Below are positions 5,083 to 48,096 of a stretch of DNA of 64,000 bases, piece by piece. The notes under the pieces were generated by a model. The model saw only the letters and a list, made by a program, of their open reading frames with translations. It searched no databases and had not been told where the DNA came from. Position 1 is the first letter of the stretch. The number at the start of each line of letters is the position of its first letter. A program made the position numbers and the translations under genes. The stretch is from Anaerovibrio sp. JC8. Lineage in GTDB: Bacteria; Bacillota; Negativicutes; Selenomonadales; Selenomonadaceae. The DNA lies in NCBI RefSeq assembly GCF_002100115.1, contig NZ_ANBM01000004.1, positions 186,001 through 250,000 of the forward strand, read 5' to 3'.

Positions 5083-5141
5083 TTGGAGACCCTCCTCCAA
5101 CAATGAAAACACTAACTGAATGAATAACATTAACTAAAATA

Positions 5142-6911: not shown

Positions 6912-6958
6912 AATAATCACCTATACCTTTAAAACAAAAACAACTCTTCTTATCTCGT

Positions 6959-11446: not shown

Positions 11447-13750
11447 TTATAATCTCCATTTTCCAAAATACATTATCTTATCCTCAGAGATACCAATTTT
11501 TAGCATTTCGTCTTTGACTTCACCAGCTATCCATGGATTATACACAGCAATCCATACCACATCAAAGTGATACTCTGTCAAGTTATCAATAGTTCCCGTA
11601 ACTGGCTGGCCTTCTTCCCTAAACTGCTTATAGTTTTTATCCAGCCAGCCTACAATCTCACACCCCATTTTTGTAGCTGCACTATAAATTCTGTGTCCCA
11701 GTACACCTGCACCATATATTACATATTTTTCACCGACAGCTCTGAATGGGAACCCCCGAAAAGCGGCATAAATATCCTCTGGCGGCAGTAGGTCTTTTCC
11801 CCAAATCTGCTTATACCTTTTTATGATTTTTCCACGATTTCTTTGGTACCATGCTATCTTGTTATTCTCCCAGGTATCGCAACGCAATAAGGAATAGTGT
11901 ATATCAGAGCCCTTGTATTGCGAATAATCTGGGTTTAAAAGAAATAGATTTCTTATATCCTTATCCGTCAATATAGGAGCAAATTTTTTAATTTTATCTG
12001 AATACCCGGTATCTTCAAATGGCATATCAGCAAAAAAATCCAGCACATTTTTATCAGGTGTTTCACCTACATCATCTAGATAAAAATATGACATCTTGGC
12101 CGACGGTACCAAACTATACTGGCTATAACAATCCATATATGATTTGGAAAACTCACCCACAGCAGATAAATACTTATCGTACCCATAATTAGTTAATATA
12201 TCCTTCTCTTTTTGGTCATTAACTGTTACAGGAATAATCCGTTCAATTTCCCCACTGTAAGCAACAGTCTGCCCATGCAGAGCCCGACAAAGCAGCTCTA
12301 ACAACATACTATGGGACAATATCTTGGGCTGAAAATTATAATATTGGGCCTTGCCCTCTATACCATCACCAAACAAATTATAATAGAAAATCTTGACTGG
12401 TTTTTCGTATGTATCATGAATAATATCCACCATACATTCAGAGGTGAAACCAGTCCCTACCAATTCCACAAAGGCAAAATCATCCTTGGCAAAACCAATC
12501 TCCTGGCAAAGATAGTCCAGAGCCAGCTTGCGTTTCTCACTATGCTGCTTTTTCAGGAATTCACGAAACTCAGACTGCTGAGCTAAATAAAGTCCTAACC
12601 AGTTAAATGTCTCCGTATACAGCAAGTGCTCCGTATCCGGCCAATGCTCGGGAAGAAACGGTTTCATTTTATCTATCGATATTTCCAGGACATCAGCTAT
12701 ATCGGCAATTTTTCTGGCCTTGGAAGCAACCCATGGTCTGGTTATATTCAACAGCCTCTTTAGCTGTGCTTCACTTCCATCATAACCAGCCATACGCCAG
12801 GTACGGCGTGAACCATAAACATAATGAGTTTCAATAGGTAAATCCCATTTTTTTATTATTTCATCTGCAATTTGCTTCAGAACAAATCCATCTCTGGCGA
12901 TAAAATATAACCTATGCACACCCATTTCCTGACTTCGCCTAATCACCCAATTTACATAAGGAAAAAGTATGGCTCCACCTACAGATACTCCCACAACAGA
13001 CGGATTACTCCAATCTTTGTGCTTCAAGCGAAGATTTTTGGCCGTACCGATTGCCAACTGGGCAGCTGAATCATACGCCGCTTGCTCTAAATACCGTTTT
13101 TCTACTCCCCATAAGGCCGAAAAATGGTACTGTTTGGCCTGAATCCCAAGCCATTCAGGCACCTTTACATCTGCTGACTCCTCATCCCCCACATGCCGCC
13201 ATTCACTATATGCAACCTGCTCTTTTCTCCTGATCAGCTCGTATAAGCTGCCAGAACTCTTGCATTTCCGCCAAATCGAAGAAACATATATGGGAATATC
13301 AGCAAAAACGCTGTCAGCATTATTCAGCATATTCCGAACTATAGCCTCATCTAAATACGTGTCGGCTATAAGGATAACCCTATTGCCTTCTTCCACCAGT
13401 TTCTTTATATTGGCAATATTTTCCTCAACGCCAACTACATTCTGTAGCTCAATTTCCTTTTCCAGGGCCATTAATTGTTCTATAGCAATCTCATTAAACT
13501 CACCGGTGGTGGCCATGGCCTTGTATATTTCCGGCAGGGTCACTTCCTCAACATTGACACCGCTGCGATAATTGCGTGCCAAGGACTCCGCCCCAACCCG
13601 CAAATCATAAAACCTGTTGCGGATTTCGGCAGATATGCCATGATATTTTTCCTCATTTTGCAAACGATGCTGCATAATGGCAAATATACCCGCTGGTGTT
13701 GCGGTTCGCCTGGTAATCAATGTATCAAAAATATCAAAACTGTATAGCAT
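11447..13750 (-). CDS. COG5610-type HAD hydrolase with C-terminal Rossmann module
   Basis: The first about 230 residues are a HAD domain (MLYSFDIFDTLITRR with the nucleophile pair D6/D9, VILIADTYLDE, and HVGDEESADV), clearly paralogous to the HAD part of the 7-8.6 kb fusion: both share FD.FDTL.TR..ATP.GIFA. Residues about 240-660 are the long second region typical of COG5610 proteins (VGVSVGGAILFPYVNWVIRR, LYFIARDGFVLKQIAD), of unknown role. Residues about 675-767 are a Rossmann module (KYVIYGAGVLGHRIY, IVGWLDKNYKQF). COG5610 genes typically sit in capsule and O-antigen loci. The ORF extends 12 codons upstream but AGGGTG precedes the ATG at 13750. It follows the transketolase pair by 43 bases. 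Confidence 0.83.
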   Translation of the reverse strand: MLYSFDIFDTLITRRTATPAGIFAIMQHRLQNEEKYHGISAEIRNRFYDLRVGAESLARNYRSGVNVEEVTLPEIYKAMATTGEFNEIAIEQLMALEKEIELQNVVGVEENIANIKKLVEEGNRVILIADTYLDEAIVRNMLNNADSVFADIPIYVSSIWRKCKSSGSLYELIRRKEQVAYSEWRHVGDEESADVKVPEWLGIQAKQYHFSALWGVEKRYLEQAAYDSAAQLAIGTAKNLRLKHKDWSNPSVVGVSVGGAILFPYVNWVIRRSQEMGVHRLYFIARDGFVLKQIADEIIKKWDLPIETHYVYGSRRTWRMAGYDGSEAQLKRLLNITRPWVASKARKIADIADVLEISIDKMKPFLPEHWPDTEHLLYTETFNWLGLYLAQQSEFREFLKKQHSEKRKLALDYLCQEIGFAKDDFAFVELVGTGFTSECMVDIIHDTYEKPVKIFYYNLFGDGIEGKAQYYNFQPKILSHSMLLELLCRALHGQTVAYSGEIERIIPVTVNDQKEKDILTNYGYDKYLSAVGEFSKSYMDCYSQYSLVPSAKMSYFYLDDVGETPDKNVLDFFADMPFEDTGYSDKIKKFAPILTDKDIRNLFLLNPDYSQYKGSDIHYSLLRCDTWENNKIAWYQRNRGKIIKRYKQIWGKDLLPPEDIYAAFRGFPFRAVGEKYVIYGAGVLGHRIYSAATKMGCEIVGWLDKNYKQFREEGQPVTGTIDNLTEYHFDVVWIAVYNPWIAGEVKDEMLKIGISEDKIMYFGKWRL

Positions 13751-13793
13751 ATAGTACACCCTGCCTCGTGATTTACTCCATCCCAAGAAATTC

Positions 13794-14765
13794 TCATCCC
13801 AGTTGATTGAAGTAATCCTTTATTCTCTCAAAAATCTTCTGCGCCGAAAGACCATTTTCTTCCAGCATCCACTCATACTCTCCAGCTTTTCCATAGGCAT
13901 CCGGCAGCCCCAGGAATATCTGTGGTGGAGACTGTTTCAATGCTGCCTTATATTCAGCAATAGCGCTGCCCAGTCCACCTACAATATTATGCTCCTCCAA
14001 TGAAACCCACAGCTTGGTAGTCTTTGCATAGGCTTCCAGCACTTCACCATCCAGTGGCTTAATAGTATGTATATTTACCACTGCGGTGCTTATTCCCACC
14101 TCGTCCAAAAGCTTGGCCGCCTTCAGTCCATTAGCGGCAATAGTGCCAGTAGTAAAAATAACTATATCCGTTCCTTCTTTTAAATTAACTGCCTTCCCCA
14201 ACTGAAAATCATAGTCTTCTTTATATATCATCGGTGTATTCACCTTGCCGGTTAAACGGATATACATAGGCTGGTCCGATTCAGCTGCGGCCTCGGCCAC
14301 CTTCACTGCCTCAAAGGCATCGACTGGTGATACTACAACCAGATTTGGTATAACCCGCATCAGGGCTATATCTTCAAAACAGAAGTGGGAGTTGCCAAGA
14401 TGCCCATTTACAATACCGGCCCGAGCTCCCACCAGCTTCACCGGCAATTTCATATAGCCCATGTTTACCCGCACCTGCTCACAGCTGCGCATGGTAATGA
14501 AATTGGCAAATGTAGCGGCAAATGTTTTGAAACCTGTTTTAGCAAGTCCTGCGGCTATGTTCACCATATTTTGCTCAGCAATACCAACATTATAAAACTG
14601 ATTTGGACATTCCCGCATAAACTTGCCTATACCGCTGGATTGAGCCAAATCAGCGGCCAATACGGCAAAATCATCCCTTTCAGCTGCCAGTTCAGCCAGG
14701 CGGGCAAAAAAGGACCCTTGGGGCCCCAACATGGAATAGGTGCGTAATATTTTCCGATCAACCAT
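13794..14765 (-). CDS. Transketolase, C-terminal subunit (split enzyme)
   Basis: The pyrimidine-binding and C-terminal domains of a TPP-dependent transketolase, encoded apart from the cofactor-binding half. Visible blocks: NVGIAEQNMVNIAAGLAKTG (the conserved Glu that activates TPP), GHLGNSHFCFEDIALMR, and the C-terminal domain with VSLEEHNIVGGLGSAIAE. The length of 323 residues fits split transketolases and 1-deoxyxylulose-synthase-like C-subunits. Start: GTG at 14768 and ATG at 14765 are both possible after GGAGGTG; ATG is chosen. It overlaps the stop of the N-subunit gene. Being last in the LuxC/LuxE/KASIII operon suggests a dedicated ketol transfer in that pathway, not central metabolism. 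Confidence 0.9.
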   Translation of the reverse strand: MVDRKILRTYSMLGPQGSFFARLAELAAERDDFAVLAADLAQSSGIGKFMRECPNQFYNVGIAEQNMVNIAAGLAKTGFKTFAATFANFITMRSCEQVRVNMGYMKLPVKLVGARAGIVNGHLGNSHFCFEDIALMRVIPNLVVVSPVDAFEAVKVAEAAAESDQPMYIRLTGKVNTPMIYKEDYDFQLGKAVNLKEGTDIVIFTTGTIAANGLKAAKLLDEVGISTAVVNIHTIKPLDGEVLEAYAKTTKLWVSLEEHNIVGGLGSAIAEYKAALKQSPPQIFLGLPDAYGKAGEYEWMLEENGLSAQKIFERIKDYFNQLG

Positions 14766-15607
14766 CACTCGGACACCTCCTGTCCCAGCTCCTGCATAGC
14801 TTCCTTGTATTGCTTTTCCGAAAGAGCACTATGATGCCACTCCGGCTTATTTTCCATAAAGCTGATACCTTTTCCCTTTATAGTATTTGCTATCACAGCC
14901 TTAGGCCTGCCATTTTTCAATGCCATAATCTCAGAAAAGGTTTCGCAAATTTTTTCTGTATCATGACCATCAATTTCCCGTACATCAAAGCCAAAGCTGC
15001 AAAATTTATCCCCTAAATCCAACAAATCCATAATATCCTTGGTCGTGCCATCACTCTGAATGGAATTTTTATCCACAATAACAATCAAGGAATCCAGTCC
15101 AAAGGACGCGGCCGCCATAGCCCCTTCCCATACAGACCCTTCATCACATTCACCATCGCCCATCAGGACAAAAACATGGTTATCATAACCCTTTCGGCGA
15201 TACCCCAAAGCAATGCCAATACCAGTTCCTATTCCCATCCCCAGGCTGCCAGTGGAAAGCTCAATTCCTCTAGCATCATTCATTACAGGATGTCCCGGTA
15301 GTTCAGAACCATCAGCCTCGAATCCCCGTAAATCTTCCATTGGAAAGTATCCGGCACAGGCCAAAGCCACATAAAATGACACAGCCGCATGCCCCTTGCT
15401 TAAGAGAAACACATCTCTTTGCTCCTTGGCTGGATTATTGGCATCTTTGTCCATAATTCCACCATATAAGCAGGCCAGAAGCTCAATACAGGAAAGTGCC
15501 CCACCAAAGTGAGCCCCTTTTCGTCCAGCACTATATCCTGTCTTTATTGTCTCAATGCGCATTTTTTCCGCAAGGGAGTTGATTTTATCCAAATTTACGA
15601 TTGCCAA
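14765..15607 (-). CDS. Transketolase, N-terminal (TPP-binding) subunit
   Basis: The thiamine-diphosphate-binding half of the split transketolase. The TPP signature GDGECDEGSVWEGAM...VDKN is present, as are AGRKGAHFGGALSCIELL, LSKGHAAVSFY and GTGIGIALGYRRKG. With the downstream gene it would move a two-carbon ketol unit from a ketose donor to an aldehyde acceptor. The frame overlaps the end of the upstream dehydrogenase gene; no ATG has a ribosome site, but a TTG at 15607 follows GGGGGGA by six bases, so it is chosen (start uncertain by up to seven codons). Its operon partner LuxC makes aldehydes, which suggests an acyl aldehyde as acceptor (inference). Confidence 0.88.
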   Translation of the reverse strand: MAIVNLDKINSLAEKMRIETIKTGYSAGRKGAHFGGALSCIELLACLYGGIMDKDANNPAKEQRDVFLLSKGHAAVSFYVALACAGYFPMEDLRGFEADGSELPGHPVMNDARGIELSTGSLGMGIGTGIGIALGYRRKGYDNHVFVLMGDGECDEGSVWEGAMAAASFGLDSLIVIVDKNSIQSDGTTKDIMDLLDLGDKFCSFGFDVREIDGHDTEKICETFSEIMALKNGRPKAVIANTIKGKGISFMENKPEWHHSALSEKQYKEAMQELGQEVSE

Positions 15608-16355
15608 TCTTAATCCCCCCATCCACACGAATTACTTGGCCGGTAATATAGCTGGACATATCCGAAGCCAAAAAAACTACCGTATTGGCCACCTCTTCCG
15701 GCTTGCCCCACCGGGCCAAAGCCGAATGAGCAATTAGATCCTTGCCCAAAGATTCATCCATAGCCTTTCCCATCTCTGTTTCAATGATCCCCGGAGCAAT
15801 GGCATTTACCCTAATACCATTATTGCCAAATTCTCTTGCCAAAGTTTTGGTTGCTCCCACCATGGCGGCCTTGCTGCTGACATATTCCAGCTGTCCTGGC
15901 GCACCATCCAATCCAGACATTGATGCTATCTGCACAATACTGCCCCCGTGTTCATTTCTCTGCATTAAGCGGGAAACATACTGCACCAGCCGCATCTGAG
16001 CAAAAAAATTAACTTCAAAGAGATTTCTCATATTATCAATGGGAGTCATCTGAAACAATGTATTTTCTGAAAGAGCTCCGGCATTATTGACCAGAACATC
16101 AATAGGACAATGGGCTTTACGGATGTCAGTCACAGCCTTTTTTACCCCAGCCTCATCGCAAATATCAAACACAACAGGTCTAATTTCCACCGAATACTCA
16201 TTGGCAAGAGACTCAAACTCTTGCGCCAGTGTTTCAGTCAAATTTCGTACACAGGCAAATACATTAGCCCCATTTTGGGCAAAGGCCGTCAAAATGGCCT
16301 TGCCAATACCACGGCTGCAACCGGTTATAACAGCATTTTTCCCTTTTAGCAACAC
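15585..16355 (-). CDS. Short-chain dehydrogenase/reductase (FabG-like)
   Basis: A 256-residue classical SDR: cofactor motif TGCSRGIGKA, NNAG at about 110, catalytic Ser (IASMSG), and YVSSK with the Tyr-Lys pair, ending YITGQVIRVDGG. It most resembles 3-oxoacyl-ACP reductases (FabG), using NAD(P)H. The start is a GTG after GAGGG. It lies directly between LuxC and the transketolase genes, so it may reduce the keto group of an intermediate handled by them. Substrate not deducible. Confidence 0.88.
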   Translation of the reverse strand: MLLKGKNAVITGCSRGIGKAILTAFAQNGANVFACVRNLTETLAQEFESLANEYSVEIRPVVFDICDEAGVKKAVTDIRKAHCPIDVLVNNAGALSENTLFQMTPIDNMRNLFEVNFFAQMRLVQYVSRLMQRNEHGGSIVQIASMSGLDGAPGQLEYVSSKAAMVGATKTLAREFGNNGIRVNAIAPGIIETEMGKAMDESLGKDLIAHSALARWGKPEEVANTVVFLASDMSSYITGQVIRVDGGIKIGNRKFG

Positions 16356-16362
16356 GGTTCCC

Positions 16363-17562
16363 TCACCTCACATCCACTATTCTCGTCATCTCTTCAACAA
16401 TATTGTAGCCATCCCAAATAACATCCAAGTCCAAGGCCTTGCCGATTGGCACCAAACGATCAATCCCCAGCCAACCATTCTCCAACACCATACTGGCCAA
16501 AGCTTTAGGATCAATACCATAATAAGTCACAGTTTGCATTTTTCCCTTCATTATAGGACCCAATTCTTTTAAATCTTTCACATCATACTCATAAAACAGG
16601 CCAAAGCTTCCCCTAAGTTCTGTCAAATCATAAGAAATATTTTTTAGAGGCACACGATAGAGCAAATTATCTTCGGACACAAGATTGCCAGTCTGTTCAA
16701 ATCTTACTGCATTGCTGCAAAACAGTGAATACTTGCTGGTAGCTTTAATAGGTGGAAAATCATATCGACCTTCAGCCAGCTTTTTTACCGCCAGCCAAAA
16801 ACGTTCCTTGCCACCTTCGAGTTTTTTCTCATCCCCCTGCCACAATATCAGTTGAGGTGACGAGCAGGCATTCTGATCCATCAAAAAAGTATCATTATAA
16901 AAGTCCTGGGCCAGGCGCTGCACAATCTGTTCTTCAGCGTCTGCAACAGCATCAGCGTTCAACAGGGCCACAGAATAACGATCAGCAAAGGTTAATTCCA
17001 CCGCCCGGGGTGGCAAGGGATATTCTCTGATATTACGAATGGTCTCATCTCCACCCCAAATCAGTCGAACCTGGCACTGGGACGAAAATTCCTTTGTCCA
17101 TATACTCTCCCTGGGATAACGCACAATAGCCGTCATTGAGCGAATAACCTGATATTCCTCCCTTGCAAGTATCCGATCCAACACAGCACACAGCAGCTTT
17201 ATCTGGGGATAATCCTTGCTGGCTACCCGCACAATATTGGCATTCCCAGCCAATAACCCAAACATATAGGAAAATATAAACTGCACCGGAATATTGGATG
17301 GTGTTATGTGAAAAGCCAATCCACGGCCTATGCGCAAAGTTTCCTGACCCAAGCTGGATTTAAGCCGCTTAATATTTCCTTTACGGGTCCAAAAGCCCAC
17401 GGCAACAATATCCGGATAAGCCTTGCAATCCCCATCATGTAAAATTTCCGCGGAAAAATCATCCAAAAAGCGGCACACTATATCACTATATGGTGGCAAT
17501 GGCTTAACTTCATGAATTTCCTCTCCTGCCAAATAGATCAACTCACTGCCCATAGGTATCAC
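16363..17562 (-). CDS. LuxC-like acyl-thioester reductase
   Basis: A 399-residue protein of the LuxC (acyl-CoA/acyl-protein reductase) family, a branch of the aldehyde-dehydrogenase fold. LuxC reduces an activated acyl group to the aldehyde with NADPH. The nucleophile block is present: LMDQNACSSPQ with Cys233. Nucleotide-binding blocks GRGLAFHITPSNIPVQ and LLAGNANIVRVASK are clear. It overlaps the LuxE-like gene by 20 bases; start GTG 17562 (GGGGG upstream) or ATG 17553. No luciferase genes (luxAB) are nearby, so the aldehyde is not for light but presumably an intermediate for a glycan substituent. The following genes (SDR, transketolase) could use it. Confidence 0.9.
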   Translation of the reverse strand: MIPMGSELIYLAGEEIHEVKPLPPYSDIVCRFLDDFSAEILHDGDCKAYPDIVAVGFWTRKGNIKRLKSSLGQETLRIGRGLAFHITPSNIPVQFIFSYMFGLLAGNANIVRVASKDYPQIKLLCAVLDRILAREEYQVIRSMTAIVRYPRESIWTKEFSSQCQVRLIWGGDETIRNIREYPLPPRAVELTFADRYSVALLNADAVADAEEQIVQRLAQDFYNDTFLMDQNACSSPQLILWQGDEKKLEGGKERFWLAVKKLAEGRYDFPPIKATSKYSLFCSNAVRFEQTGNLVSEDNLLYRVPLKNISYDLTELRGSFGLFYEYDVKDLKELGPIMKGKMQTVTYYGIDPKALASMVLENGWLGIDRLVPIGKALDLDVIWDGYNIVEEMTRIVDVR

Positions 17563-18622
17563 TGCACCCCCTGATTTCCGCTTTGCTTATTCGCCCCAAA
17601 AGTTCAAAGTATTTTCCCTTTCGGCCGCACGGGCAATCATCCTCACCCAATATTTTTCCCCAGTCTTCGGTCAAAAGAATATGCCCCGGGTAGCTGGAAG
17701 GCAGTATCGACAACAGTTCTACCAATCCCTCCTCGCCGATTTTACAACTGCTAAAATCCCGGGGATTACGAATCAAAATATCTGAAAAAACTGAACAGTG
17801 CATATGGCCTTCTTCACACTCCACAAAAACCGAGCCCAGCTGCTCGGCCATACCGTAATAGTTATGGATATGCACATTACCGCACACACTCCGTACAGCT
17901 TCATTATAAGCTTTTGTACTTACCCGCTCAGCCTGAAGCTTTTTCCAACCTCCAATATGGAACAAAACTCCATCAGGGATTTCCAATGATTTGCCACCGG
18001 ACCGCAAAGTCTTTACTACATATTGCCAAATCATATACGTATAGCCAAATAAAATAATCCGTTCCCCCTGGTGCTTGGCTAGATAATCCTTCAACTCCGC
18101 CTCACGTAATTGCATATTATCATCCAAGGCAAAAAAAACATCCCTGCCAAACATGGAAAAGCCAATAATCCCTGCTCCACGGGCCGAAAACATCCGTGGA
18201 TCCTTCTTGGCTAATTCCGTGTCAAGGATTATCATGGGAAGGCGTTTCTTGCCAATATAAGAAGCCATTATATTCGCCAAACATTTCGATTGGGCCATGG
18301 CAGTAGCCCTATCCAAAAACACCTGTGATCTGGTCTGTCCAGTTGTACCGGAGGATTTCATGGTCTTTACAACTGACTCCCGTGGCACGCTCAGAAGCTC
18401 AAATTCTTTAAAAAGCTGTACTGATATAAAGGGAAAATCTGCCAATTCCTCAATCCCCTCGGCATTATAGCCCAATGCCTGCAAAATACGGGCATACTCC
18501 GAACAATTATTTATATGGTGGGCTGTCAGTTCTTTCAGGCACTTAACCATAAACTGGCTTTTTTCCTTTGCCTTCATGGAATAAGGCTCATATTTAAGAT
18601 ATGGTACATGACTGTCCAGCAT
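17543..18622 (-). CDS. LuxE-like acyl-protein synthetase
   Basis: ATP-dependent enzyme of the LuxE/PaaK-related adenylating family. In the lux system LuxE activates a carboxylic acid as acyl-AMP, holds it on a cysteine and passes it to LuxC. Motifs: MKSSGTTGQTRSQVFLD (phosphate-binding loop), NYYGMAEQLGSVF (adenine site), and a C-terminal CPCGRKGKYFELLGR hinge. The 359 residues match LuxE length. The open frame runs 20 codons further up, but the ATG at 18622 follows AGGAG by eight bases and leaves four bases to the upstream stop. Adjacent to and overlapping luxC, as in lux operons. Confidence 0.88.
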   Translation of the reverse strand: MLDSHVPYLKYEPYSMKAKEKSQFMVKCLKELTAHHINNCSEYARILQALGYNAEGIEELADFPFISVQLFKEFELLSVPRESVVKTMKSSGTTGQTRSQVFLDRATAMAQSKCLANIMASYIGKKRLPMIILDTELAKKDPRMFSARGAGIIGFSMFGRDVFFALDDNMQLREAELKDYLAKHQGERIILFGYTYMIWQYVVKTLRSGGKSLEIPDGVLFHIGGWKKLQAERVSTKAYNEAVRSVCGNVHIHNYYGMAEQLGSVFVECEEGHMHCSVFSDILIRNPRDFSSCKIGEEGLVELLSILPSSYPGHILLTEDWGKILGEDDCPCGRKGKYFELLGRISKAEIRGCSDTYGQ

Positions 18623-18626
18623 ATCC

Positions 18627-19268
18627 TCATCTCCTAACATACACATCCAAAGGCTGGGAAAAAGCCGCCCCAAGAGATGCATATAAATTCATTACTGACA
18701 TGTTGCGGCTGGAAATACGTCCCCAAAGTTTCTTTATTCCCTGCTCCCGGCACTTCTCCACTGCACCTGCATATAGGGAAGTCGCAACTCCAGCCACCCG
18801 ATATTTTTCGTCCACCGCCGCCAAGCGGATAATAGCTTGATTCTGATTTTCCACATCGGGCAGGACCTCCAAAAAACCGGCGATTTCTCCCCTAAAGCGG
18901 CAAATATAAAAGGACTTCATCTCATCCACATATGCGCATATGGAGCCTCTTTTCTCATCGTCAGATGTATTAGTCCTATCAAAAAAACGCGAATCAGGCA
19001 AAAAAGCCTGCTTCGCTATCTCATAAATGCGATTTTCCAGCTTATTTATCCTCTCTAAAGGTATTCTACACAACCTGGAAAAATCCCTGTCTTTTTTTAT
19101 AGGAATGGTAGCCTTTATGGTGCGATCAACCATAAAATAGCCTTCTTTTCGCAACAATTCCGCTATTTCCCTTGCATCCGAATCGACTACAAATTTGGAC
19201 GGTTTCACCTGGAAAGCCGCCCATTCCTCTATATTATGCAGTTCTTTAGCCGCCATTTGGTACTTCAC
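18627..19268 (-). CDS. GNAT-family N-acetyltransferase
   Basis: A 213-residue acyltransferase. The C-terminal 120 residues have the GNAT pattern: FYICRFRGEIAGFLEV, IIRLAAVDEKYRVAGVATSLY (acyl-CoA loop, degenerate R/Q-x-x-G-x-G/A) and WGRISSRNMSVMNLYASLGA. The N-terminal part is unlike common GNATs and may be substrate-specific. It overlaps the upstream AMP-ligase stop by four bases (start GTG 19268; ATG 19256 is an alternative). In this operon it likely acylates an amino group of the intermediate or of a sugar; substrate unknown. Confidence 0.78.
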   Translation of the reverse strand: MKYQMAAKELHNIEEWAAFQVKPSKFVVDSDAREIAELLRKEGYFMVDRTIKATIPIKKDRDFSRLCRIPLERINKLENRIYEIAKQAFLPDSRFFDRTNTSDDEKRGSICAYVDEMKSFYICRFRGEIAGFLEVLPDVENQNQAIIRLAAVDEKYRVAGVATSLYAGAVEKCREQGIKKLWGRISSRNMSVMNLYASLGAAFSQPLDVYVRR

Positions 19269-20668
19269 ATGCCCAGCCCCTTCAAACTTTCATACAATAT
19301 CTTCCCCGATGAATTACGGGGTATTTCTTCCACCTTTACAACGGCAAAGGCCGAACTGTGCAAGTGGGTAAATTCCCCCAAACGCAGGCACAATTCCTTG
19401 GTATTTATATCCTCCGTGGTGTAAACCACTAGTTTATCATCTGCTCCGGCACAGGCACAGGAAAGATACCCCTGACTTTTGAGATATGCCTCCACCGCAT
19501 CCAAACTTACACGATTACCAAACAATTTAAGGAACCGCTTCTTTCGACCAGTAATGTAATAAAAGCCATCACCATCCCGGCGGGCAATATCCCCGGTATG
19601 AAGCACTCCATGATTCTCATCACCTTTGCTAAGGTCATCCTGACACTCCGTATAACCAAGGGTCACATTATCTCCGTAATAAATGAGTTCGCCATCAATA
19701 TCCGAAGCCGTTATCTCTGCCCCTCTATCATCCATCAAGGCCAGCCGCCCCTCTGGTATAGCTATCCCTATACTTCCGGCTTTATCCTGGGCATATTCCC
19801 ATGGAAGATAAGCCATTCGGGCTGTAGCTTCACAGGCACCATACATAGTAATGAATTTTATCCCCTTATCATCGCACACTTTGGCAAACTCAGCAGAAAT
19901 ATCAGCCGCCAACTTGCCTCCCGCCTGGGTAATAAAACGCAATGATGGCAAATCCATGCGCCCAAACCGCATCCGTTTGAGCATCTCATATGTATAAGGT
20001 ACCCCGCCGAAATTGGTAACTTCATACTTCTTTAAAAGCTCCCAAAAAACTCGGGCAAACATTGAAGCCTCAGTAAGCACTATACTGCCCCCAGCAAACA
20101 GCTGCGTCTGGATGATCGAAAGACCATAGGTGTAATACATGGGCATGGTAGTAATGGCCCTGTCATCAGATGTCAAAGACAGATACTTCGCAATAGACAA
20201 GGTATTGGCCATTATATTCTTATAAGACTGACGGACAAGCTTCGGACTGCCAGTGCTGCCAGAGGTTGACAGCAAAACCGCCAAATCATCGTTAATAGGA
20301 TACTTTTCTTCCCCAGTATCCCACAGCTGATAATTCCCATCTGAATACAATACTTTGCCAATACTGGCTTTGCGCCCAACTTCCATCCACAAATACTTTG
20401 GATGATATGCTTTCAGCAAATGTTCCAAAAGCTCATCCTGTATTTCCCCATTAAGCAACAAAGGAACCATACCATGTCGCAGAGCCCCAACATAAGCCGT
20501 AACCGCCGATACACAATTACGGCACAACAAAAACGCTAGACTGCGCTTTTCCATAAGGCTGGCAATATTATCCGCTTCTGCCACCAACTGATTAAAGGAC
20601 CACGCCTTGCCCGACTCTTCAATCAGTGCCGTTGTATCACCGAATTTTTCCAACTGGTCAAAAATCAT
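19265..20668 (-). CDS. AMP-dependent acyl ligase (acyl-CoA/acyl-ACP synthetase family)
   Basis: ANL-superfamily adenylating enzyme of 467 residues. The A3 loop LLSTSGSTGSPKLVRQ, the A5 motif MYGACEATARMAY, A7/A8 HTGDIARRDGDGFYYITGRKKRF and the catalytic A10 lysine in PRNSSGKILYESL are all present. It would activate a carboxylic acid and load it on the ACP encoded immediately upstream. The ATG at 20668 follows GAGG by nine bases; an upstream TTG (20683) lacks a ribosome site. No carrier domain is fused, consistent with the free ACP next door. Confidence 0.9.
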   Translation of the reverse strand: MIFDQLEKFGDTTALIEESGKAWSFNQLVAEADNIASLMEKRSLAFLLCRNCVSAVTAYVGALRHGMVPLLLNGEIQDELLEHLLKAYHPKYLWMEVGRKASIGKVLYSDGNYQLWDTGEEKYPINDDLAVLLSTSGSTGSPKLVRQSYKNIMANTLSIAKYLSLTSDDRAITTMPMYYTYGLSIIQTQLFAGGSIVLTEASMFARVFWELLKKYEVTNFGGVPYTYEMLKRMRFGRMDLPSLRFITQAGGKLAADISAEFAKVCDDKGIKFITMYGACEATARMAYLPWEYAQDKAGSIGIAIPEGRLALMDDRGAEITASDIDGELIYYGDNVTLGYTECQDDLSKGDENHGVLHTGDIARRDGDGFYYITGRKKRFLKLFGNRVSLDAVEAYLKSQGYLSCACAGADDKLVVYTTEDINTKELCLRLGEFTHLHSSAFAVVKVEEIPRNSSGKILYESLKGLGM

Positions 20669-20683
20669 TTTACGTAGCCTCAA

Positions 20684-20923
20684 TCAAAGCTCTACATCAT
20701 ATTTCTGCAAAATTTCCTTGCCCTTGCCAAAGGTACCAAAATCCATAATATCTTCCGTCTCAAACATGATGTCAAAGGCATCCTCTATGGAAGCCATCAA
20801 CCGCATATGTCCCACAGAATCCCATTCAGGAATGCTGTCAAAAGCAAGTTCATCAGTCAATGCGCTGTCGTCTATTTCCAAAGCCTCTTTAAAAGCTTCC
20901 TTATACTTTTCCATATTAGTCAT
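20684..20923 (-). CDS. Acyl carrier protein 1
   Basis: An acidic 79-residue carrier protein. The phosphopantetheine site is EWDSVGHM with Ser36, a non-housekeeping variant of the DSL motif. The start has a perfect GGAGG seven bases upstream. It sits between KASIII-1 and the AMP-ligase, so it is likely loaded by that ligase or extended by that synthase. It differs strongly from the second ACP in the operon, arguing for two distinct carrier roles. Confidence 0.9.
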   Translation of the reverse strand: MTNMEKYKEAFKEALEIDDSALTDELAFDSIPEWDSVGHMRLMASIEDAFDIMFETEDIMDFGTFGKGKEILQKYDVEL

Positions 20924-20947
20924 ATATATACCTCCAAAACCAGAAGC

Positions 20948-22000
20948 CTAAAGCTCCCATGTATCATAAATCACTGTATCAGACAAATCCGCTGTCAAAG
21001 CCCCCCAGGAAAGTCCCACACCAAAGCCGCAAATCAGTACCTTGGAAAGGCCATTTCTCTCCGCCAATTCTTTGTGAGTTTTTGACAACATAAGTGGCAC
21101 TGACGCAGAAACGGTATTCCCCATATGCTTCAGCTCTATGGGCATTCTATCCAATGATACACCAATCCGTTTGGCCAAAAACTCTAAAATCAGCTGATTG
21201 GCCTGATGCATGGCAAATGTCCCCACATCATCTAGTTTCCATTCAGCATACTCCAAAGTTTCCTTCACCATTGACGGTACCTTACTAAGGGCAAAGTTCA
21301 TAATCTCCAGACCATCCATATAGGTGTACTCCGGCCAGCGAGGATGTCCATTCTTGTCCATAACAGGTTGAGCGGTTTCCACCGACTTAGGTAATCGCCA
21401 GCCACCGGCCTCCATAAATATGTACTGGTAACCACTGCCATCTGAATGAATATTGAAGCACATGGTCTGCTCTCCCCGCTCTACCACGGTGACCGCAAAG
21501 CCATCCCCCAATACCATACGGTTGCCCCGGTCCTGCTTGTGAATCATCCGAAGCTGGGTATCGCCAGTGAAAACCAATACCCTCCGGCAGCTGCCAGATG
21601 ATACCAACAGTGCTGCCTGATACAGACCATAAACATAGCCGGAACAACCATAATTAATATCAAAGGCCACAGCAGACTGGGGCAGTCCCAACCTATCCTG
21701 CAATATTACACTGGTGGCTGGCACCCGATAGTCTGGGGTCTGAGAAATAAAAACAATCCCATCGAAGTCATCGCCTGTAAGGCCACTTTGCTGCATCAAA
21801 TGCTTCGCCAATATCATTCCATAATCAGAGGTACACATGGACTCATCTGCAACATGAACCGACTCCACACCAGTGGACTTTTTTATGCGTTTTACTTCCT
21901 TTTCGTTGAAGTATTTTTCATAATCGGAAATATTGATAATCTGTTGTGGTAGACCAGATGCTATATAGGAGATTTTTATGTTTGATAATTTTACCTTCAT
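20948..22000 (-). CDS. 3-oxoacyl-ACP synthase III-like (KASIII-1)
   Basis: A 350-residue thiolase-fold condensing enzyme. The Cys-His-Asn triad is visible: Cys119 in NYGCSGYVYGL, His265 in AMHQANQ, Asn295 in KHMGNTVSAS. KASIII enzymes take an acyl-CoA primer and condense it with malonyl-ACP; homologues in secondary pathways also form esters. It lies four bases after the SDR-2 gene and 24 bases before ACP-1. With the intact triad, a condensation role is expected; the primer is unknown. Confidence 0.92.
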   Translation of the reverse strand: MKVKLSNIKISYIASGLPQQIINISDYEKYFNEKEVKRIKKSTGVESVHVADESMCTSDYGMILAKHLMQQSGLTGDDFDGIVFISQTPDYRVPATSVILQDRLGLPQSAVAFDINYGCSGYVYGLYQAALLVSSGSCRRVLVFTGDTQLRMIHKQDRGNRMVLGDGFAVTVVERGEQTMCFNIHSDGSGYQYIFMEAGGWRLPKSVETAQPVMDKNGHPRWPEYTYMDGLEIMNFALSKVPSMVKETLEYAEWKLDDVGTFAMHQANQLILEFLAKRIGVSLDRMPIELKHMGNTVSASVPLMLSKTHKELAERNGLSKVLICGFGVGLSWGALTADLSDTVIYDTWEL

Positions 22001-22004
22001 AATA

Positions 22005-22775
22005 TCAATTCATCCCCGCCAAGCTGCCGCCATCAACCACAATATCGGTTCCAGTAATCCACCGTGCTGCATCACTCAACAGGAACAACACCATAGGGCT
22101 CACATCCTCTGGTTTACCAACGCCAAGAGGGTAGGAATCATATATTTCCTTAACCCTATCGGCACCAATTTCATCACGTGATTTTAGTGACATGTCCGTT
22201 TCCACCCAACCAGGGCTTATACTATTAATACGATGCTGGTCGCGATACAGCTCCTTCGCCAAGGAACGAACAGCAGAACACACCGCCCCTTTAGCACCAG
22301 AGTATGCAAACTGTCCTCTATTACCATAATGGGCAGCCGTAGAGGCAAAGACTACATATGATGAGCCCTTTGAAGCATGCTTTTTCTTGGCCATGCCCTG
22401 TATAAACCGCGTCATGCCGAAAAAACTGGTGTCAAGTATACGATGAGCAAAATCATCGTCATACATTCTAAGGGCGGTCATGCCAGTAATACCGGCAGTA
22501 TATACCCCTCCATGAATTTTCCCATGATTTGCAACAAATTCACATAAAACTCGGTCCCAATCCTCCGGACATGCCTCAAGCACATCCAGAGATTGTACTT
22601 CAATCAGGTCAGGGAACGACTTCTGTACTTCTTGCAGTCTTTCCTCATTGCGTGCAACCGCCAAAACATGGGCCCCAGCTTCGGCCAAATTCAATGTAAT
22701 TTGCCGCCCCATACCAGACGAGGCCCCAACTACCACAAAATTCTTATTGTCAAATTGAAACTTTACATCCTTCAT
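22005..22775 (-). CDS. Short-chain dehydrogenase/reductase 2
   Basis: A 256-residue SDR with VVVGASSGMGRQ (cofactor loop), FASTAAHYGNRGQFAYSGAKGA (Ser, and Tyr-x-x-x-Lys as YSGAK), and ITGTDIVVDGGS at the end. The NNAG position is TAGITG, a variation from the classical motif. Probable keto-reductase acting after KASIII-1 or KASIII-2 on an ACP-bound or free keto intermediate. It starts 13 bases after the MBL gene with an AAGGATGG ribosome site. Confidence 0.88.
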   Translation of the reverse strand: MKDVKFQFDNKNFVVVGASSGMGRQITLNLAEAGAHVLAVARNEERLQEVQKSFPDLIEVQSLDVLEACPEDWDRVLCEFVANHGKIHGGVYTAGITGMTALRMYDDDFAHRILDTSFFGMTRFIQGMAKKKHASKGSSYVVFASTAAHYGNRGQFAYSGAKGAVCSAVRSLAKELYRDQHRINSISPGWVETDMSLKSRDEIGADRVKEIYDSYPLGVGKPEDVSPMVLFLLSDAARWITGTDIVVDGGSLAGMN

Positions 22776-22788
22776 TATTTACCCATCC

Positions 22789-23472
22789 TTAAGATTTTGT
22801 AAATATATCATTCTCATATTTCAAACCTTGGGCCGAATATGGCTCCCCATGTCCCGGCATGATTTCGAATTGCTCCCCCACCGATAGCAAATATGGGAGA
22901 GTATATTTTTTATAATCTTTTTTGGAGCCACCTGGCAACCTTAGCAATACAGGCAAATCCAAAATCAAATAATCCCCAGAAAACAAATATTTATCATCAA
23001 ACTCGATAACCATACTACCCACAGAATGCCCCGGCCTTGAAGATAAATGAAGCTTGTGCTCCCCCCACTGGAAATCATAGCTGTCATCAAAAACTACATC
23101 TGCCTCAATGGCATCCGTAGGCAAAGCATCACAAAAGGCCTCTACTTCCTTTTCGTGTCCCTTGGCCTCCGGGCACATCAAAGCCAAAAATGTCCATGGG
23201 ATATTATTTCTGGAATCAGCAATATATTTAGCACATTCCCTTTGACATATCACCCTCGCATTAAAAACTTTTTTATACCAATTTGCTCCAGATACATGAT
23301 CAAAATGTTCATGAGTCAGAAGGATTGTTAATTCTCGAATTCCCGCTTCTTTTAATATGTTCATAGCTTCATCAGAACAGCTGGGATCAATAAGTAATGC
23401 CATATCTCCTTCTAGCATGAGATACATATTTGATGCCACGTATTTCATAGGAAACCTGTGAAATTCACACAT
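22789..23472 (-). CDS. Metallo-beta-lactamase-fold hydrolase
   Basis: A 227-residue MBL-fold protein with all metal-binding blocks: LLTHEHFDHVSG, GHSVGSM, FSGDYLI, and MPGHGEP. The fold includes glyoxalase II and various thioesterases. Between ACP-2 and SDR-2 in an acyl pathway it may release or proofread a thioester from an ACP (inference; MBL-fold thioesterases occur in polyketide pathways). No signal peptide. Confidence 0.88.
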   Translation of the reverse strand: MCEFHRFPMKYVASNMYLMLEGDMALLIDPSCSDEAMNILKEAGIRELTILLTHEHFDHVSGANWYKKVFNARVICQRECAKYIADSRNNIPWTFLALMCPEAKGHEKEVEAFCDALPTDAIEADVVFDDSYDFQWGEHKLHLSSRPGHSVGSMVIEFDDKYLFSGDYLILDLPVLLRLPGGSKKDYKKYTLPYLLSVGEQFEIMPGHGEPYSAQGLKYENDIFTKS

Positions 23473-23491
23473 GTTTTTTTATTCCTATATA

Positions 23492-23710
23492 TCAGCGATT
23501 AATAAGCTGATACAAATCGCGTACAACCTTAGCATCACGCACCTCTTGCGGCTCCACATGAGTCTTGGCCACCTTGGAGCACAAAGCTAAAAAGGAAACA
23601 TAGCTCAAAGAATCCCACTCCTCAACCTCCTCCAGAACGGTATCCATCTGAAGCTCTTCTTCCGTATCCATTACATCAACTAACTTTTCAATAAATTCCT
23701 GTTCATTCAT
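23492..23710 (-). CDS. Acyl carrier protein 2
   Basis: A 72-residue, strongly acidic carrier protein with the phosphopantetheine motif EWDSLSYVSF (Ser34). It is preceded by an AGGGGAG ribosome site and lies 23 bases downstream of KASIII-2. Pairing of each KASIII with its own ACP (this one with KASIII-2, the other with KASIII-1) suggests two condensation or acyl-transfer steps in one pathway. Confidence 0.88.
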   Translation of the reverse strand: MNEQEFIEKLVDVMDTEEELQMDTVLEEVEEWDSLSYVSFLALCSKVAKTHVEPQEVRDAKVVRDLYQLINR

Positions 23711-23733
23711 GGTAAAAACTCCCCTAAGTCAAT

Positions 23734-24789
23734 TTAAATTTCGTTGGTTGGCAATATATTAATATCACTTAAATCCATTATCATGGAAGCAACAGAAAGT
23801 CCTGCACCGAAACCGGAAAGTAATGCAGTATGATATTTCGTATAATCTGCCCCATCTTTTTTCAATTCCGTCATAGCTGTAGGTATAGACGCCATATCCG
23901 TATTGCCTATGTTGGCACACTTAAATGGCATTACCTCAGATGACATCCCCAGCTTTTCCGCCAAGGAATTGACAATCAAACCATTGGCCTGATGTACTAG
24001 TGCTATGTCCATAGCATCTTTACTTAAATCTACATATTTCAACAATGCCGTAATATTATCTGGCACTTCTTTTAAAGTAAAATCCGTAATAGCCATACCA
24101 TCCATCATAGAATAATTTTCCGGCTCAAGAATCATCTCACCATCTGCGGTAGTCCTCTTTCGTTCTCTGGCTGCACCACGAGGTTCATAAAGCTTCTTAA
24201 ACCTATCCCCATAACTATCAATATTATAATAAATTTTCTTTTTACAGTTTTCTGGGGTGCGTCCCAATATTGCCACACTGGCAGCATCCCCCATAATAGT
24301 AAGGAATGACGTATCTTTGGGGTTGGTGATATCTGGATTAGATGTTACATCTCCACAGCATAACAAAACTTTCTTGCCAAGGTTCGACAGCATAGAAGCA
24401 GCAATATATATGCCATATACAAATCCAGGACAGCTACAATTAACATCAAAAGCCAGTACATCTGTCCCCAAGCTCAAACGATCCTGTATGCTGTAGCTGG
24501 TGGCTGGTAACGGATAATCTGGCCGTTGGGTTACAAAAAATACTGCCCCAATATCTTCCCGCTTAACTATTCCTTCATCAAATATTCTTTCTGCTGAAGC
24601 TACGCACAAATCCGAAGCACTGATACCTGGCTGAACGATACTCAATTTCTCAACCCCAGTACCAGCTATCACCCTTGCCAAGCGTTTGGGTTTTATTAAA
24701 TCTCCCACTCGTTCTTCAACTGGCACACGATTTTTTGATAGTGATGTCGCCAATGCTTCAATCCGTACATCTTCTATAACACCAAACAA
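23734..24789 (-). CDS. 3-oxoacyl-ACP synthase III-like (KASIII-2)
   Basis: A second KASIII-type enzyme of 351 residues, paralogous to KASIII-1 but quite divergent. Triad: Cys120 in NCSCPGFVYGI, His266 in LVHQANG, Asn296 in ANIGNTDMAS. The start is a TTG at 24789 with GGAGGT eight bases upstream; an ATG in between is out of frame and soon hits a stop. The gene is downstream of a GNAT-like gene and a WecE-like aminotransferase, linking the acyl pathway to amino-sugar synthesis. Confidence 0.9.
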   Translation of the reverse strand: MFGVIEDVRIEALATSLSKNRVPVEERVGDLIKPKRLARVIAGTGVEKLSIVQPGISASDLCVASAERIFDEGIVKREDIGAVFFVTQRPDYPLPATSYSIQDRLSLGTDVLAFDVNCSCPGFVYGIYIAASMLSNLGKKVLLCCGDVTSNPDITNPKDTSFLTIMGDAASVAILGRTPENCKKKIYYNIDSYGDRFKKLYEPRGAARERKRTTADGEMILEPENYSMMDGMAITDFTLKEVPDNITALLKYVDLSKDAMDIALVHQANGLIVNSLAEKLGMSSEVMPFKCANIGNTDMASIPTAMTELKKDGADYTKYHTALLSGFGAGLSVASMIMDLSDINILPTNEI

Positions 24790-24811: not shown

Positions 24812-25561
24812 TCACTCAAAATGTCTGATAAAAACATTCGATATATTAGTAACCTTTCTACCGAACATCAAATGCAACTGCAATATTGGTACATTATTAG
24901 AGGATACCATGGTTCTGTCAACTTTTCCAGTTCCATCCAAAAAACACTTAATGGACGAAAAAAGATACAATCCGCCATAATTTCTTGTGTTTTCACCGAC
25001 AAAAATCCCCCCCAATAAACCTTTTATATTCCCATTCCCCAAATCTTTGCCTAAAAAAAAGCCTATGGGATAATTATTGTAACACGAAAAAAAAATATCT
25101 GCCCCACGCCGTACTTCGTCCTGAACCCATAAAGCATACCTTTTATTTGCAGTATTTACGCCAAAAAATGGATCCAAAGCAATCCGGTCTGTGGTGAAAA
25201 TCCCCTTGTTAATTTCACTCATAACATATTCTAGTTGGCTATTATCAACTCTGCTATAACTAATTCCCGGAAACACATCTTTATACAATTCATATTTCTC
25301 TTTTGCATCTTCTCGTGTCAGTTTTAACCCTATTTGTGATTCAATTAATAAATATTTATTCTTCTGAAGTAACTGACTTATCCGTGGGTATTTTGTATCT
25401 GTCTTAACAACAACATATTTTGCCTGACAATTATTCCTAAAATCTTCTATTTGTCCACAAATATCCTCATCAGACAATGAAGCATCTTTTTTTTCCAACG
25501 AAACTTCTATGGTTTTTACTCCTAAGTTTCGTTCCTCCCATGTTGCATTAACACATTTCAT
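24812..25561 (-). CDS. GNAT-like acyltransferase, possible WecD-type amino-sugar N-acyltransferase
   Basis: A protein of about 249 residues. The second half has the arrangement of WecD-like sugar acetyltransferases: ALWVQDEVRRGADIFFSC, YPIGFFLGKDLGNGNIKGLLGGIFV and MVSSNNVPILQLHLMFGRKV (the SxxN...G.K pattern). The gene directly upstream is a WecE-like sugar aminotransferase, the pairing used to make dTDP-4-acetamido-4,6-dideoxygalactose. An acyl other than acetyl is possible, since the acyl-ACP operon follows. Start ATG 25561 (AAGGA eight bases before) or ATG 25570. Confidence 0.68.
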   Translation of the reverse strand: MKCVNATWEERNLGVKTIEVSLEKKDASLSDEDICGQIEDFRNNCQAKYVVVKTDTKYPRISQLLQKNKYLLIESQIGLKLTREDAKEKYELYKDVFPGISYSRVDNSQLEYVMSEINKGIFTTDRIALDPFFGVNTANKRYALWVQDEVRRGADIFFSCYNNYPIGFFLGKDLGNGNIKGLLGGIFVGENTRNYGGLYLFSSIKCFLDGTGKVDRTMVSSNNVPILQLHLMFGRKVTNISNVFIRHFE

Positions 25562-25640
25562 AAATCCCATCCTTTATAACCCACCACAATTTCATCACGA
25601 TACGATATCCCTACAATTATTTGAAACAGATAGACCAACT

Positions 25641-26771
25641 CTAAGAAAAATATGATTTTAACCTATAAACAACTTTTTCTCTATCTTGTTCCGTCAATCC
25701 ATAATACAACGGTAGTCTAACTAATCTTTCACTTTCTTTTGTGGTATATATGTCTTCCCCTGCGAATCTGCCATATTTTCTTCCCGCCGGCGCAGAGTGC
25801 AGGGGCACATAATGAAATACGCAATATATTCCATGTTTCCTCATATAATCGATAAATTTGGTTCTTCCATTAAGATTTTCAAGTTTCAAATAAAACATAT
25901 GCCCATTATGCTCACAATCTGTCGGGACATATGGCAATTCAACTTTTCCTGCATTCTCAAGAAATTGCAATTCATTTTTATAAAATGACCATGAATCTAC
26001 TCGATTTTTCAATATCTCTTCGGCATGCAACAGCTGCCCCCAAAGATATGCGGCATTTAGCTCGCTTGGTAAATAGCTGTCGCCAAAATCTACCCAAGTG
26101 TACTTATCCACTTCACCTCTGAAAAAAGCCGAACGATTAGTTCCTTTTTCTCTAAGTATCTCTGCCCGTAAATTATAAGTATCATCATTAATTACCAATG
26201 CTCCGCCTTCACCCATAGAATAATTCTTTGTCTCATGGAAGGAAAAGCATCCAAAATCTCCAATAGTTCCCAAAGGCCTTCCTTTGTATGTGCTCATAAT
26301 CCCCTGTGCTGCATCTTCAATTACTTTTAGATTATGCCGTCTGGCAATATCTAAAATTGTATCCATCTCACAGGCAACACCTGCATAATGAACTACTATT
26401 ATAGCTTTTGTTTTGTCCGTTAGAGCAGCCTCAATTTTTTTTTCATCAATATTCATCGTATCAGGACGAACATCGACAAAAACCAGCCTTGCTCCAGCTA
26501 AAACAGCTGCTGTTGCCGTGCTAGAAAAAGTAAAGCTGGGAAGAATAACTTCATCTCCTGGCTGTAAATCACAAAGAAGCAGGGCCATATCCAAAGCTGT
26601 GGTCCCACTTGTAGTCAGCAATATCTTTTGCGCATTAAACCGTGCTTCCATCCACTTGCTGCATCTTTTGGTAAAGTCTCCATCACCGGAAATCTTGCGG
26701 TTGTTGATGACTTCCTGTATGTATTTTATTTCATCTCCTGTACATGGAGGAATATTAAATGGAATAGACAT
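25641..26771 (-). CDS. Sugar aminotransferase, WecE/RffA-like (DegT/DnrJ/EryC1 family)
   Basis: PLP enzyme of 376 residues. The family blocks are LLTTSGTTALDMALLL, IEDAAQGIMSTYKGRPLG, and the PLP lysine in FHETKNYSMGEGGA (Lys182); ILREKGTNRSAFFRGEVDKYTWVDFGDSY-type blocks, read in parts, are the hallmark of WecE (dTDP-4-dehydro-6-deoxyglucose 4-aminotransferase). It would give a dTDP-4-amino-4,6-dideoxyhexose using glutamate. The required dehydratase (RmlB type) and RmlA are not in the window. It heads the acyl-ACP operon, 70 bases upstream of the GNAT-like gene. A 9-base A run within the coding strand is in frame. Confidence 0.9.
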   Translation of the reverse strand: MSIPFNIPPCTGDEIKYIQEVINNRKISGDGDFTKRCSKWMEARFNAQKILLTTSGTTALDMALLLCDLQPGDEVILPSFTFSSTATAAVLAGARLVFVDVRPDTMNIDEKKIEAALTDKTKAIIVVHYAGVACEMDTILDIARRHNLKVIEDAAQGIMSTYKGRPLGTIGDFGCFSFHETKNYSMGEGGALVINDDTYNLRAEILREKGTNRSAFFRGEVDKYTWVDFGDSYLPSELNAAYLWGQLLHAEEILKNRVDSWSFYKNELQFLENAGKVELPYVPTDCEHNGHMFYLKLENLNGRTKFIDYMRKHGIYCVFHYVPLHSAPAGRKYGRFAGEDIYTTKESERLVRLPLYYGLTEQDREKVVYRLKSYFS

Positions 26772-48024: not shown

Positions 48025-48038
48025 ACAATCTCCTAAAA

Positions 48039-48052
48039 TGTAGAATTCTACA
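48039..48052. promoter_or_regulatory. Palindromic operator 1 (TGTAGAATTCTACA)
   Basis: Perfect 14-base palindrome about 15 bases upstream of the ATPase start, between the likely -10 box and the ribosome site; binding here would block transcription. See the matching site at 48103. Confidence 0.6.
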
Positions 48053-48066
48053 GTTTTGCTGATTGT

Positions 48067-48096
48067 ATTTTATCATTATATCCTACAATAATTCAA
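48067..48096 (-). promoter_or_regulatory. Probable sigma-A promoter of the ATPase gene
   Basis: Minus-strand TTGAAT (48096-48091) and TAAAAT (48072-48067) with an 18-base spacer; a TATAAT at 48080-48075 is an alternative -10. It is bracketed by the two operator-like palindromes. Confidence 0.5.

Follow-up and report, generated by a model that had tools for sequence, protein, structure and literature searches.

A minus-strand gene cassette in Anaerovibrio sp. JC8 joins LuxE-like and LuxC-like enzymes, which likely convert an acid via an acyl-enzyme to an aldehyde, with the two halves (TktN and TktC) of a split transketolase that would probably extend this aldehyde by a two-carbon (C2) ketol. 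The cassette occupies positions 13794 to 24789 of the analyzed window, a stretch of 64,000 nucleotides of contig NZ_ANBM01000004.1 (contig 4 of genome G000, positions 186001 to 250000), and locus coordinates are given within this window. Its gene content, operon layout, and conservation, the transketolase clade, and the residue changes in that clade were observed directly. The cassette is very probably real, conserved, and dedicated to glycan decoration, with a specialized transketolase. The full series of steps discussed below, in which the LuxE/LuxC aldehyde receives a C2 ketol from the transketolase and the product goes into acyl decoration of a flagellin glycan, is assigned a probability of about 0.5.

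Conservation of the gene set

Relatives of LuxC were collected by an alignment search of one genome per species from 84,980 species. The resulting 494 stretches are scattered across many phyla; the best 80 were kept and supplemented with nine further loci from whole-genome searches, for a total of 89 LuxC loci. The closest named relative locus comes from an uncultured Anaerovibrio in the RUG series of metagenome-assembled genomes (L032 in the locus numbering of this analysis), with a LuxC that is 95% identical. Gene orders vary among the 89 loci while the gene set is stable: LuxE is encoded in 87 of them, an AMP-forming acyl ligase (AMP-ligase) in 76, and an acyl carrier protein (ACP) in 70. 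TktN and TktC are found in 43 loci, at a median LuxC-TktN distance of 4.1 kb. The transketolase-LuxC set is represented in Bacillota, Proteobacteria, Planctomycetes, Synergistota, SAR324, Gastranaerophilales, and other groups. A search of 398 genomes of the phylum detected close matches to TktC in two, the JC8 genome and one other, each of which carries a LuxC cassette.

Loci of at least 12 kb allow a comparison of those with (37) and without (33) the transketolase. Short-chain dehydrogenases/reductases (SDRs) of the SDR1/SDR2 kind accompany all 37 of the former and 14 of the latter (Fisher p = 1e-8), and SDR2 is encoded no more than two genes away from TktN in 39 of 45 cases. The GNAT-family acyltransferase GNAT2 follows the same trend (17/37 versus 4/33, p = 0.0035). 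In contrast, KASIII is found in 16 of the 37 transketolase loci and in 11 of the 33 others (p = 0.47), and many transketolase-LuxC loci lack any KASIII, which rules it out as a core member. Judging from these co-occurrence counts, ACP2, AMP-ligase, LuxE, and LuxC form the core, SDR2-TktN-TktC often accompanies it, and the KASIII modules occur independently. The preliminary description of this DNA had envisaged a conserved block of LuxC, LuxE, TktN, TktC, and KASIII; the ACP-AMP-ligase-LuxE-LuxC set does recur across phyla, joined in nearly half of the loci by TktN-TktC, but KASIII has to be removed from the block. A chance gene island is likewise excluded, as the same set is conserved across phyla.

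A plasmid-borne example is found in the clover symbiont Rhizobium anhuiense T24, whose plasmid pRA_T24_2 carries the order TktN-TktC-acyltransferase-ACP-AMP-ligase and, further on, DegT-LuxE-LuxC, along with an SDR, a GMC oxidoreductase, and FabZ.

A transketolase clade with an altered acceptor pocket

The JC8 genome encodes three transketolases: a full-length enzyme (666 aa), another split pair, and the cassette pair, which has the hallmarks of split transketolases (the thiamine diphosphate [ThDP] motif, the catalytic Glu, and the substrate His set). In a tree of 46 cassette TktCs with 30 further split TktCs of the phylum, all 46 cassette sequences fell into a single clade (support, 1.0) that included one further sequence, from Desulfosporosinus (L117), itself encoded in an SDR2-TktN-TktC trio. 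The two other copies in the genome and the dedicated TktC clade rule out a housekeeping role for the cassette pair, an option that the preliminary description had raised against its own proposal.

The catalytic machinery is retained in this clade. In E. coli numbering, Glu411, Phe437, and His473 of TktC are invariant in all 46 members; His26, His66, and His261 of TktN are retained in 47 of 47 and His100 in 40 of 47. The residues that contact a sugar phosphate acceptor show a different picture. His461 and Asp469 of TktC are absent from all 46 cassette members and present in 28 and 26, respectively, of the 30 other split enzymes; Arg520 is an Arg in none of 45 (versus 29/30), Arg91 is found in none of 47 (versus 27/30), and Ser385 is retained in 23 of 46. 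The Arg91/His461/Asp469/Arg520 set of the acceptor site is thus missing from the cassette clade. The split-gene transketolase of Carboxydothermus hydrogenoformans (PDB 6yaj/6yak, PMC7661550), the best PDB sequence match of both TktN and TktC, shares with the cassette pair the two-chain architecture, ThDP, and the catalytic residues, whereas the acceptor-pocket residues kept by other split enzymes are lost in the cassette clade.

In the E. coli enzyme, Ser385 binds the substrate phosphate, Asp469 is salt-bridged to Arg91, and Arg520 narrows the funnel (PMC5073344; see also PMC7661550). An S385Y/D469T/R520Q variant was evolved from the use of phosphorylated to nonphosphorylated aldehydes and then to nonpolar and aromatic ones (PMC5073344). 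Judged by sequence, the natural clade is altered at the same positions as this engineered variant, as would be expected of a transketolase fed by LuxC. The central step of the preliminary description, a LuxC aldehyde extended by a C2 ketol on the transketolase, thereby gains support, as a dedicated clade with a remodeled acceptor pocket would fit a nonphosphorylated aldehyde (PMC5073344).

LuxE, LuxC, and the relation to bioluminescence genes

Cys373 of LuxE is conserved in at least 97% of 88 sequences; it is aligned to residue 364 of chain 7xc6_E, the known acyl-accepting Cys. The catalytic Cys233 of LuxC is likewise conserved in at least 97% of 93 sequences. Given these two conserved cysteines, conversion of an acid via an acyl-enzyme to an aldehyde is likely, in agreement with the LuxE-like activation and LuxC-like reduction proposed earlier. 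Both chains are homologous to those of the Lux fatty acid reductase LuxC-LuxE (PDB 7xc6), with the catalytic cysteines kept. They match the respective families at the Pfam superfamily level and fall well short of the NCBIfam equivalog cutoffs (LuxE, 60 bits versus 550; LuxC, 37 versus 750). Lux systems differ from the cassette in having luxAB and LuxD; here a metallo-beta-lactamase (MBL)-fold hydrolase stands in place of LuxD. No luciferase (luxAB) domain was detected among the scanned window genes, nor was any dehydratase, FabF, or enoyl reductase, just as initially described. A luxCDABE-type bioluminescence operon is ruled out by the lack of luxAB among these genes and by the low equivalog scores.

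Tetronate-type cassettes and possible fates of the aldehyde

A second, divergent cassette is located just past the window end (L030:3-5840; contig 4, 250003-255840). It encodes an ACP, an AMP-ligase, an iron-containing alcohol dehydrogenase (Fe-ADH), and a LuxE-LuxC fusion, next to a GNAT protein and an FdtA-type isomerase. In makeup, this cassette resembles the tetronate genes rfbKLMN of Vibrio cholerae O1, which encode an ACP, an AMP-ligase, an Fe-ADH, a LuxE-LuxC fusion, and an acyltransferase that provide a hydroxyacyl group on an amino sugar. Two reports place a LuxE domain in RfbN (Morona 1995, cited in PMC4772473) and the tetronate gene wbeL in the O-antigen locus (PMC3441752). Matched by domain, the window cassette shares ACP, AMP-ligase, LuxE, and LuxC with the V. 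cholerae set, which has an alcohol dehydrogenase and fused LuxE/LuxC, whereas the window cassette has SDR2, TktN, and TktC and separate LuxE and LuxC. The Fe-ADH step is absent from the window cassette and present in the second one. As the second cassette has Fe-ADH in place of SDR2 and the transketolase, the window cassette is best modeled as a tetronate-type acyl cassette in which the transketolase extends the chain.

In the Aeromonas flagellin islands (PMC7874193) and on two plasmids, an SDR alone takes the place of the dehydrogenase. The simplest reading of these arrangements is a single aldehyde-making core with exchangeable tailoring: reduction, C2 extension followed by reduction, and perhaps amination.

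KASIII modules and acyl transfer

Both KASIII proteins, KAS1 and KAS2, retain the Cys-His-Asn triad. A comparable set of gene classes (aminotransferase, KASIII, ACP, SDR, and acyltransferase) forms the viosamine island of Pseudomonas syringae, which produces N-(3-hydroxybutanoyl) viosamine on flagellin (PMC3927599). KAS1/KAS2, ACP1, SDR1, and WecE would be the counterparts at the JC8 locus, the acyltransferase being matched only by the label of the putative GNAT1; the likeness is judged by gene class rather than by comparison with VioA/S/R/B sequences. The P. syringae listing has no LuxE, LuxC, AMP-ligase, or transketolase, whereas the JC8 cassette has all four.

The MBL-fold hydrolase recurs beside ACP2 and AMP-ligase in relatives, and in one of these a single open frame matches both AMP-ligase and the MBL hydrolase (L021:12010-14148), so the two may work together.

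A probable flagellin glycosylation island

Genes surrounding the cassette encode glycosyltransferases, sugar aminotransferases, a sugar 4,6-dehydratase-like enzyme, methyltransferases, and LicD proteins. The flanks outside the window add three GT41-type (O-GlcNAc-transferase-like) proteins and a TibC-like glycosyltransferase (L031:11069-16133, L030:8675-18375). The adjoining flagellins and these flanking protein glycosyltransferases point to a flagellin glycosylation island, and the position of the cassette suggests that its glycan ends on flagellin. The glycan setting with WecE suggested in the preliminary description is thus strengthened. WecE scores 611 bits against a cutoff of 435 for the dTDP-4-amino-4,6-dideoxyhexose transaminase family (TIGR02379); the amino sugar is therefore probably dTDP-Fuc4N or a near relative.

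The same island contains, directly downstream of a LicD gene, a nucleotidyltransferase fused to a serine hydroxymethyltransferase-like pyridoxal phosphate domain (40434-42776), which may provide the glycans with an activation step of the CDP-aminoalcohol or aminoethylphosphonate type. A DUF4143 AAA ATPase and a HipA-like protein are inserted into the island at 46717-49541.

Proposed pathway and alternatives

LuxE would adenylate a short carboxylic acid and hold it on Cys373, and LuxC would take the acyl group onto Cys233 and reduce it to the aldehyde, as suggested by family membership and the conserved residues. The co-occurrence data and the remodeled pocket suggest this aldehyde, in place of a sugar phosphate, as the acceptor of a C2 ketol from the dedicated split transketolase; the product would be a 1,3-dihydroxy-2-ketone, whose new ketone could be reduced by SDR2. 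By analogy with the V. cholerae tetronate genes, activation of the finished acid is a more probable task for AMP-ligase and ACP2 than the supply of LuxE: AMP-ligase would load the acid on ACP2, GNAT2 would transfer it to an amino sugar, and the MBL protein would serve as a thioesterase. The KASIII-ACP1-SDR1 module may make a separate 3-hydroxyacyl group of the viosamine-island type for the WecE-derived amino sugar. The finished glycan would be placed on flagellin.

Several observations weigh against this pathway. No transketolase is encoded within reach in 46 of the 89 LuxC loci, which implies other fates for the aldehyde. Anaerovibrio lipolyticus LB2005 (L034) has SDR2 and a DegT aminotransferase where the window has TktN/TktC, as does L020; the DegT position possibly reflects a third fate, such as amination. 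The second split pair of JC8 (L029:7573-9320; contig 5, ~159572-161319) also lacks Asp469 and His461 while keeping an Arg520-like Arg, so the loss of Asp469 and His461 alone is not diagnostic. Furthermore, the distal pocket serves transketolase donors as well as acceptors, which means that an unusual donor could also account for the missing residues. Finally, the sample of loci favors close relatives of LuxC, and the counts come from related sequences without correction for phylogeny.

The order of steps in the preliminary description, as worked out here, shares the central reaction, extension of a LuxC aldehyde by the transketolase, and differs in what comes before it: KASIII and SDR would assemble a short 3-hydroxyacyl chain with ACP2 as the carrier, the MBL protein would free the acid (like LuxD), and LuxE/LuxC would reduce it, so that the transketolase would yield a deoxy-ketose-like unit, for example, a 4,6-dideoxyhexulose skeleton from 3-hydroxybutanal. 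KAS2 adjoins ACP2, both KAS triads are intact, and the MBL gene has the recurrent position and the fusion described above. This order is nevertheless unlikely, as it leaves the role of AMP-ligase unexplained and KASIII shows no association with the transketolase loci, many of which do without it; since the LuxC-transketolase core has no fixed link with KASIII, a KASIII-primed chain for LuxC to reduce is not needed.

A still less probable scenario has LuxE/LuxC and the transketolase serving separate products, a tetronate-like acyl group and an unusual sugar precursor. It would accommodate the many LuxE/LuxC loci without a transketolase and the one genome in which SDR2-TktN-TktC lies away from the LuxC locus. 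However, that genome also carries a LuxE/LuxC cassette, the linkage is tight and repeated in many gene orders and phyla, and the altered pocket speaks against a sugar phosphate acceptor. The dTDP-4-keto sugar enzymes in the same island and the altered distal pocket could also suit a ThDP enzyme that adds an acyl unit to a keto-sugar, forming a branched-chain sugar similar to yersiniose or caryophyllose in place of a C2 ketol on an aldehyde; retention of the transketolase donor-side His set in TktN makes this very improbable.

Organization of the locus

Pfam/NCBIfam and motif scans identified 13 genes inside the cassette span (Table 1). The preliminary description had counted 14; all its calls except one were confirmed, and the fourteenth gene, the "GNAT" here named GNAT1, lies outside the span. 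Read from 26771 down to 13794, the gene order is WecE, GNAT1, KAS1, ACP1, MBL, SDR1, KAS2, ACP2, AMP-ligase, GNAT2, LuxE, LuxC, SDR2, TktN, and TktC. Gaps from GNAT1 to TktC range from -56 to +24 bp; on the same strand beyond TktC, three large glycan-type genes follow at distances of 7, 56, and -4 bp, and two flagellins after a further 136 bp. The GNAT1-TktC gaps and the 7-bp distance to the next gene indicate a single operon by layout. The true start of LuxE may sit further downstream, given its 56-bp overlap with GNAT2.

WecE and a GNAT had been placed at the operon head; the former assignment stands, and the acyltransferase label of GNAT1 is unproven, as this protein has no Pfam, NCBIfam, or PDB-sequence match and its single-sequence AlphaFold model is uninformative (mean predicted local distance difference test score, 41). 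Among 60 relatives, no homologs of GNAT1 were found except in its own genome.

Table 1. Genes of the cassette and its flanks (window coordinates)
Gene	Position	Strand	Predicted product	Family or motif
Flagellin	2122..5130	-	Very long flagellin of 1002 aa, tandem partner of the 592-aa flagellin	
Flagellin	5142..6920	-	Flagellin, 592 aa	
	7057..8589	-	Cytidylyltransferase-like protein	
	8586..11390	-	Methyltransferase-LicD fusion	
	11447..13786	-	Large HAD-like/PglD-like protein directly downstream of TktC in the operon	
TktC	13794..14768	-	Transketolase Pyr and C-terminal half, acceptor-pocket residues replaced	PF02779, PF02780
TktN	14765..15628	-	Transketolase ThDP-binding half	PF00456
SDR2	15585..16355	-	FabG-like short-chain reductase, TktN partner	
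LuxC	16363..17562	-	LuxC-like acyl reductase, nucleophile Cys233 conserved	PF05893
LuxE	17543..18682	-	LuxE-like acyl-protein synthetase	PF04443; Cys373 aligned to LuxE residue 364 of PDB 7xc6
GNAT2	18627..19268	-	GNAT-family acyltransferase, weakly WecD-like	
AMP-ligase	19265..20683	-	AMP-forming acyl ligase	PF00501
ACP2	20684..20923	-	Acyl carrier protein of the LuxE/LuxC core	PF00550, EWDS motif
KAS2	20948..22000	-	KASIII	Cys-His-Asn triad
SDR1	22005..22775	-	FabG-like reductase	
MBL	22789..23472	-	MBL-fold hydrolase, possibly acyl-ACP thioesterase	HxHxDH motif
ACP1	23492..23710	-	Acyl carrier protein	EWDSL motif, no Pfam match
KAS1	23734..24789	-	KASIII	Cys-His-Asn triad
GNAT1	24812..25570	-	Putative N-acyltransferase, outside the cassette span	No family match
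WecE	25641..26771	-	WecE-type dTDP-4-keto-6-deoxyhexose transaminase	TIGR02379

Previous listings and implications

Contrary to the initial impression that no described locus has this full set, a near-identical set is listed beside fliC in Dickeya zeae EC2, without KASIII and without a mechanism (PMC7575072). That locus shares LuxC, LuxE, AMP-ligase, two transketolase genes, two SDRs, ACP, aminotransferase, acyltransferase, and a neighboring flagellin; its tktA/tktB genes are labeled as sugar biosynthesis, and the likeness is judged from the gene listing. Surveys of Enterobacteriaceae (PMC4875605) and Aeromonas (PMC7874193) list ACP, LuxE, LuxC, ligase, and FabG in flagellin islands, and one of them proposes a "liposugar." The Aeromonas group II island has ACP, 3-oxoacyl-ACP reductase, AMP-synthetase, LuxE, and LuxC beside flagellin glycosylation genes; it differs from the JC8 cassette in listing no transketolase or KASIII and in having the glycan linked via a pseudaminic acid derivative (PMC7874193). 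The V. cholerae O1 genes are another related set. None of these listings comes with the mechanism proposed here, and no paper linking LuxC/LuxE mechanistically to a transketolase was found in the literature searched. Thus, parts of the cassette have been listed before, and the link between the transketolase and the LuxC product appears new.

The Aeromonas group II flagellar glycan contains an unidentified 102-Da part (PMC7874193), for which a dihydroxybutanoyl residue (C4H6O3 = 102.03) is a suggested candidate. If the proposed pathway is true, the cassette enzyme would be a natural transketolase for nonphosphorylated aldehydes, the same change that protein engineers reached by directed evolution, and a source of enzymes for carbon-carbon bond formation. 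It would also give a named function to a set of genes that turns up repeatedly in the glycan loci of many phyla, flagellin islands among them, and has so far been tagged only as "fatty acid" and "sugar" genes. Tentatively, this transketolase clade may have evolved to accept acyl-derived aldehydes from LuxE/LuxC, in which case glycan units built partly of acid or fatty-acid carbon and partly of ketose C2 would be spread over many phyla and constitute a still undescribed class of sugar decoration.

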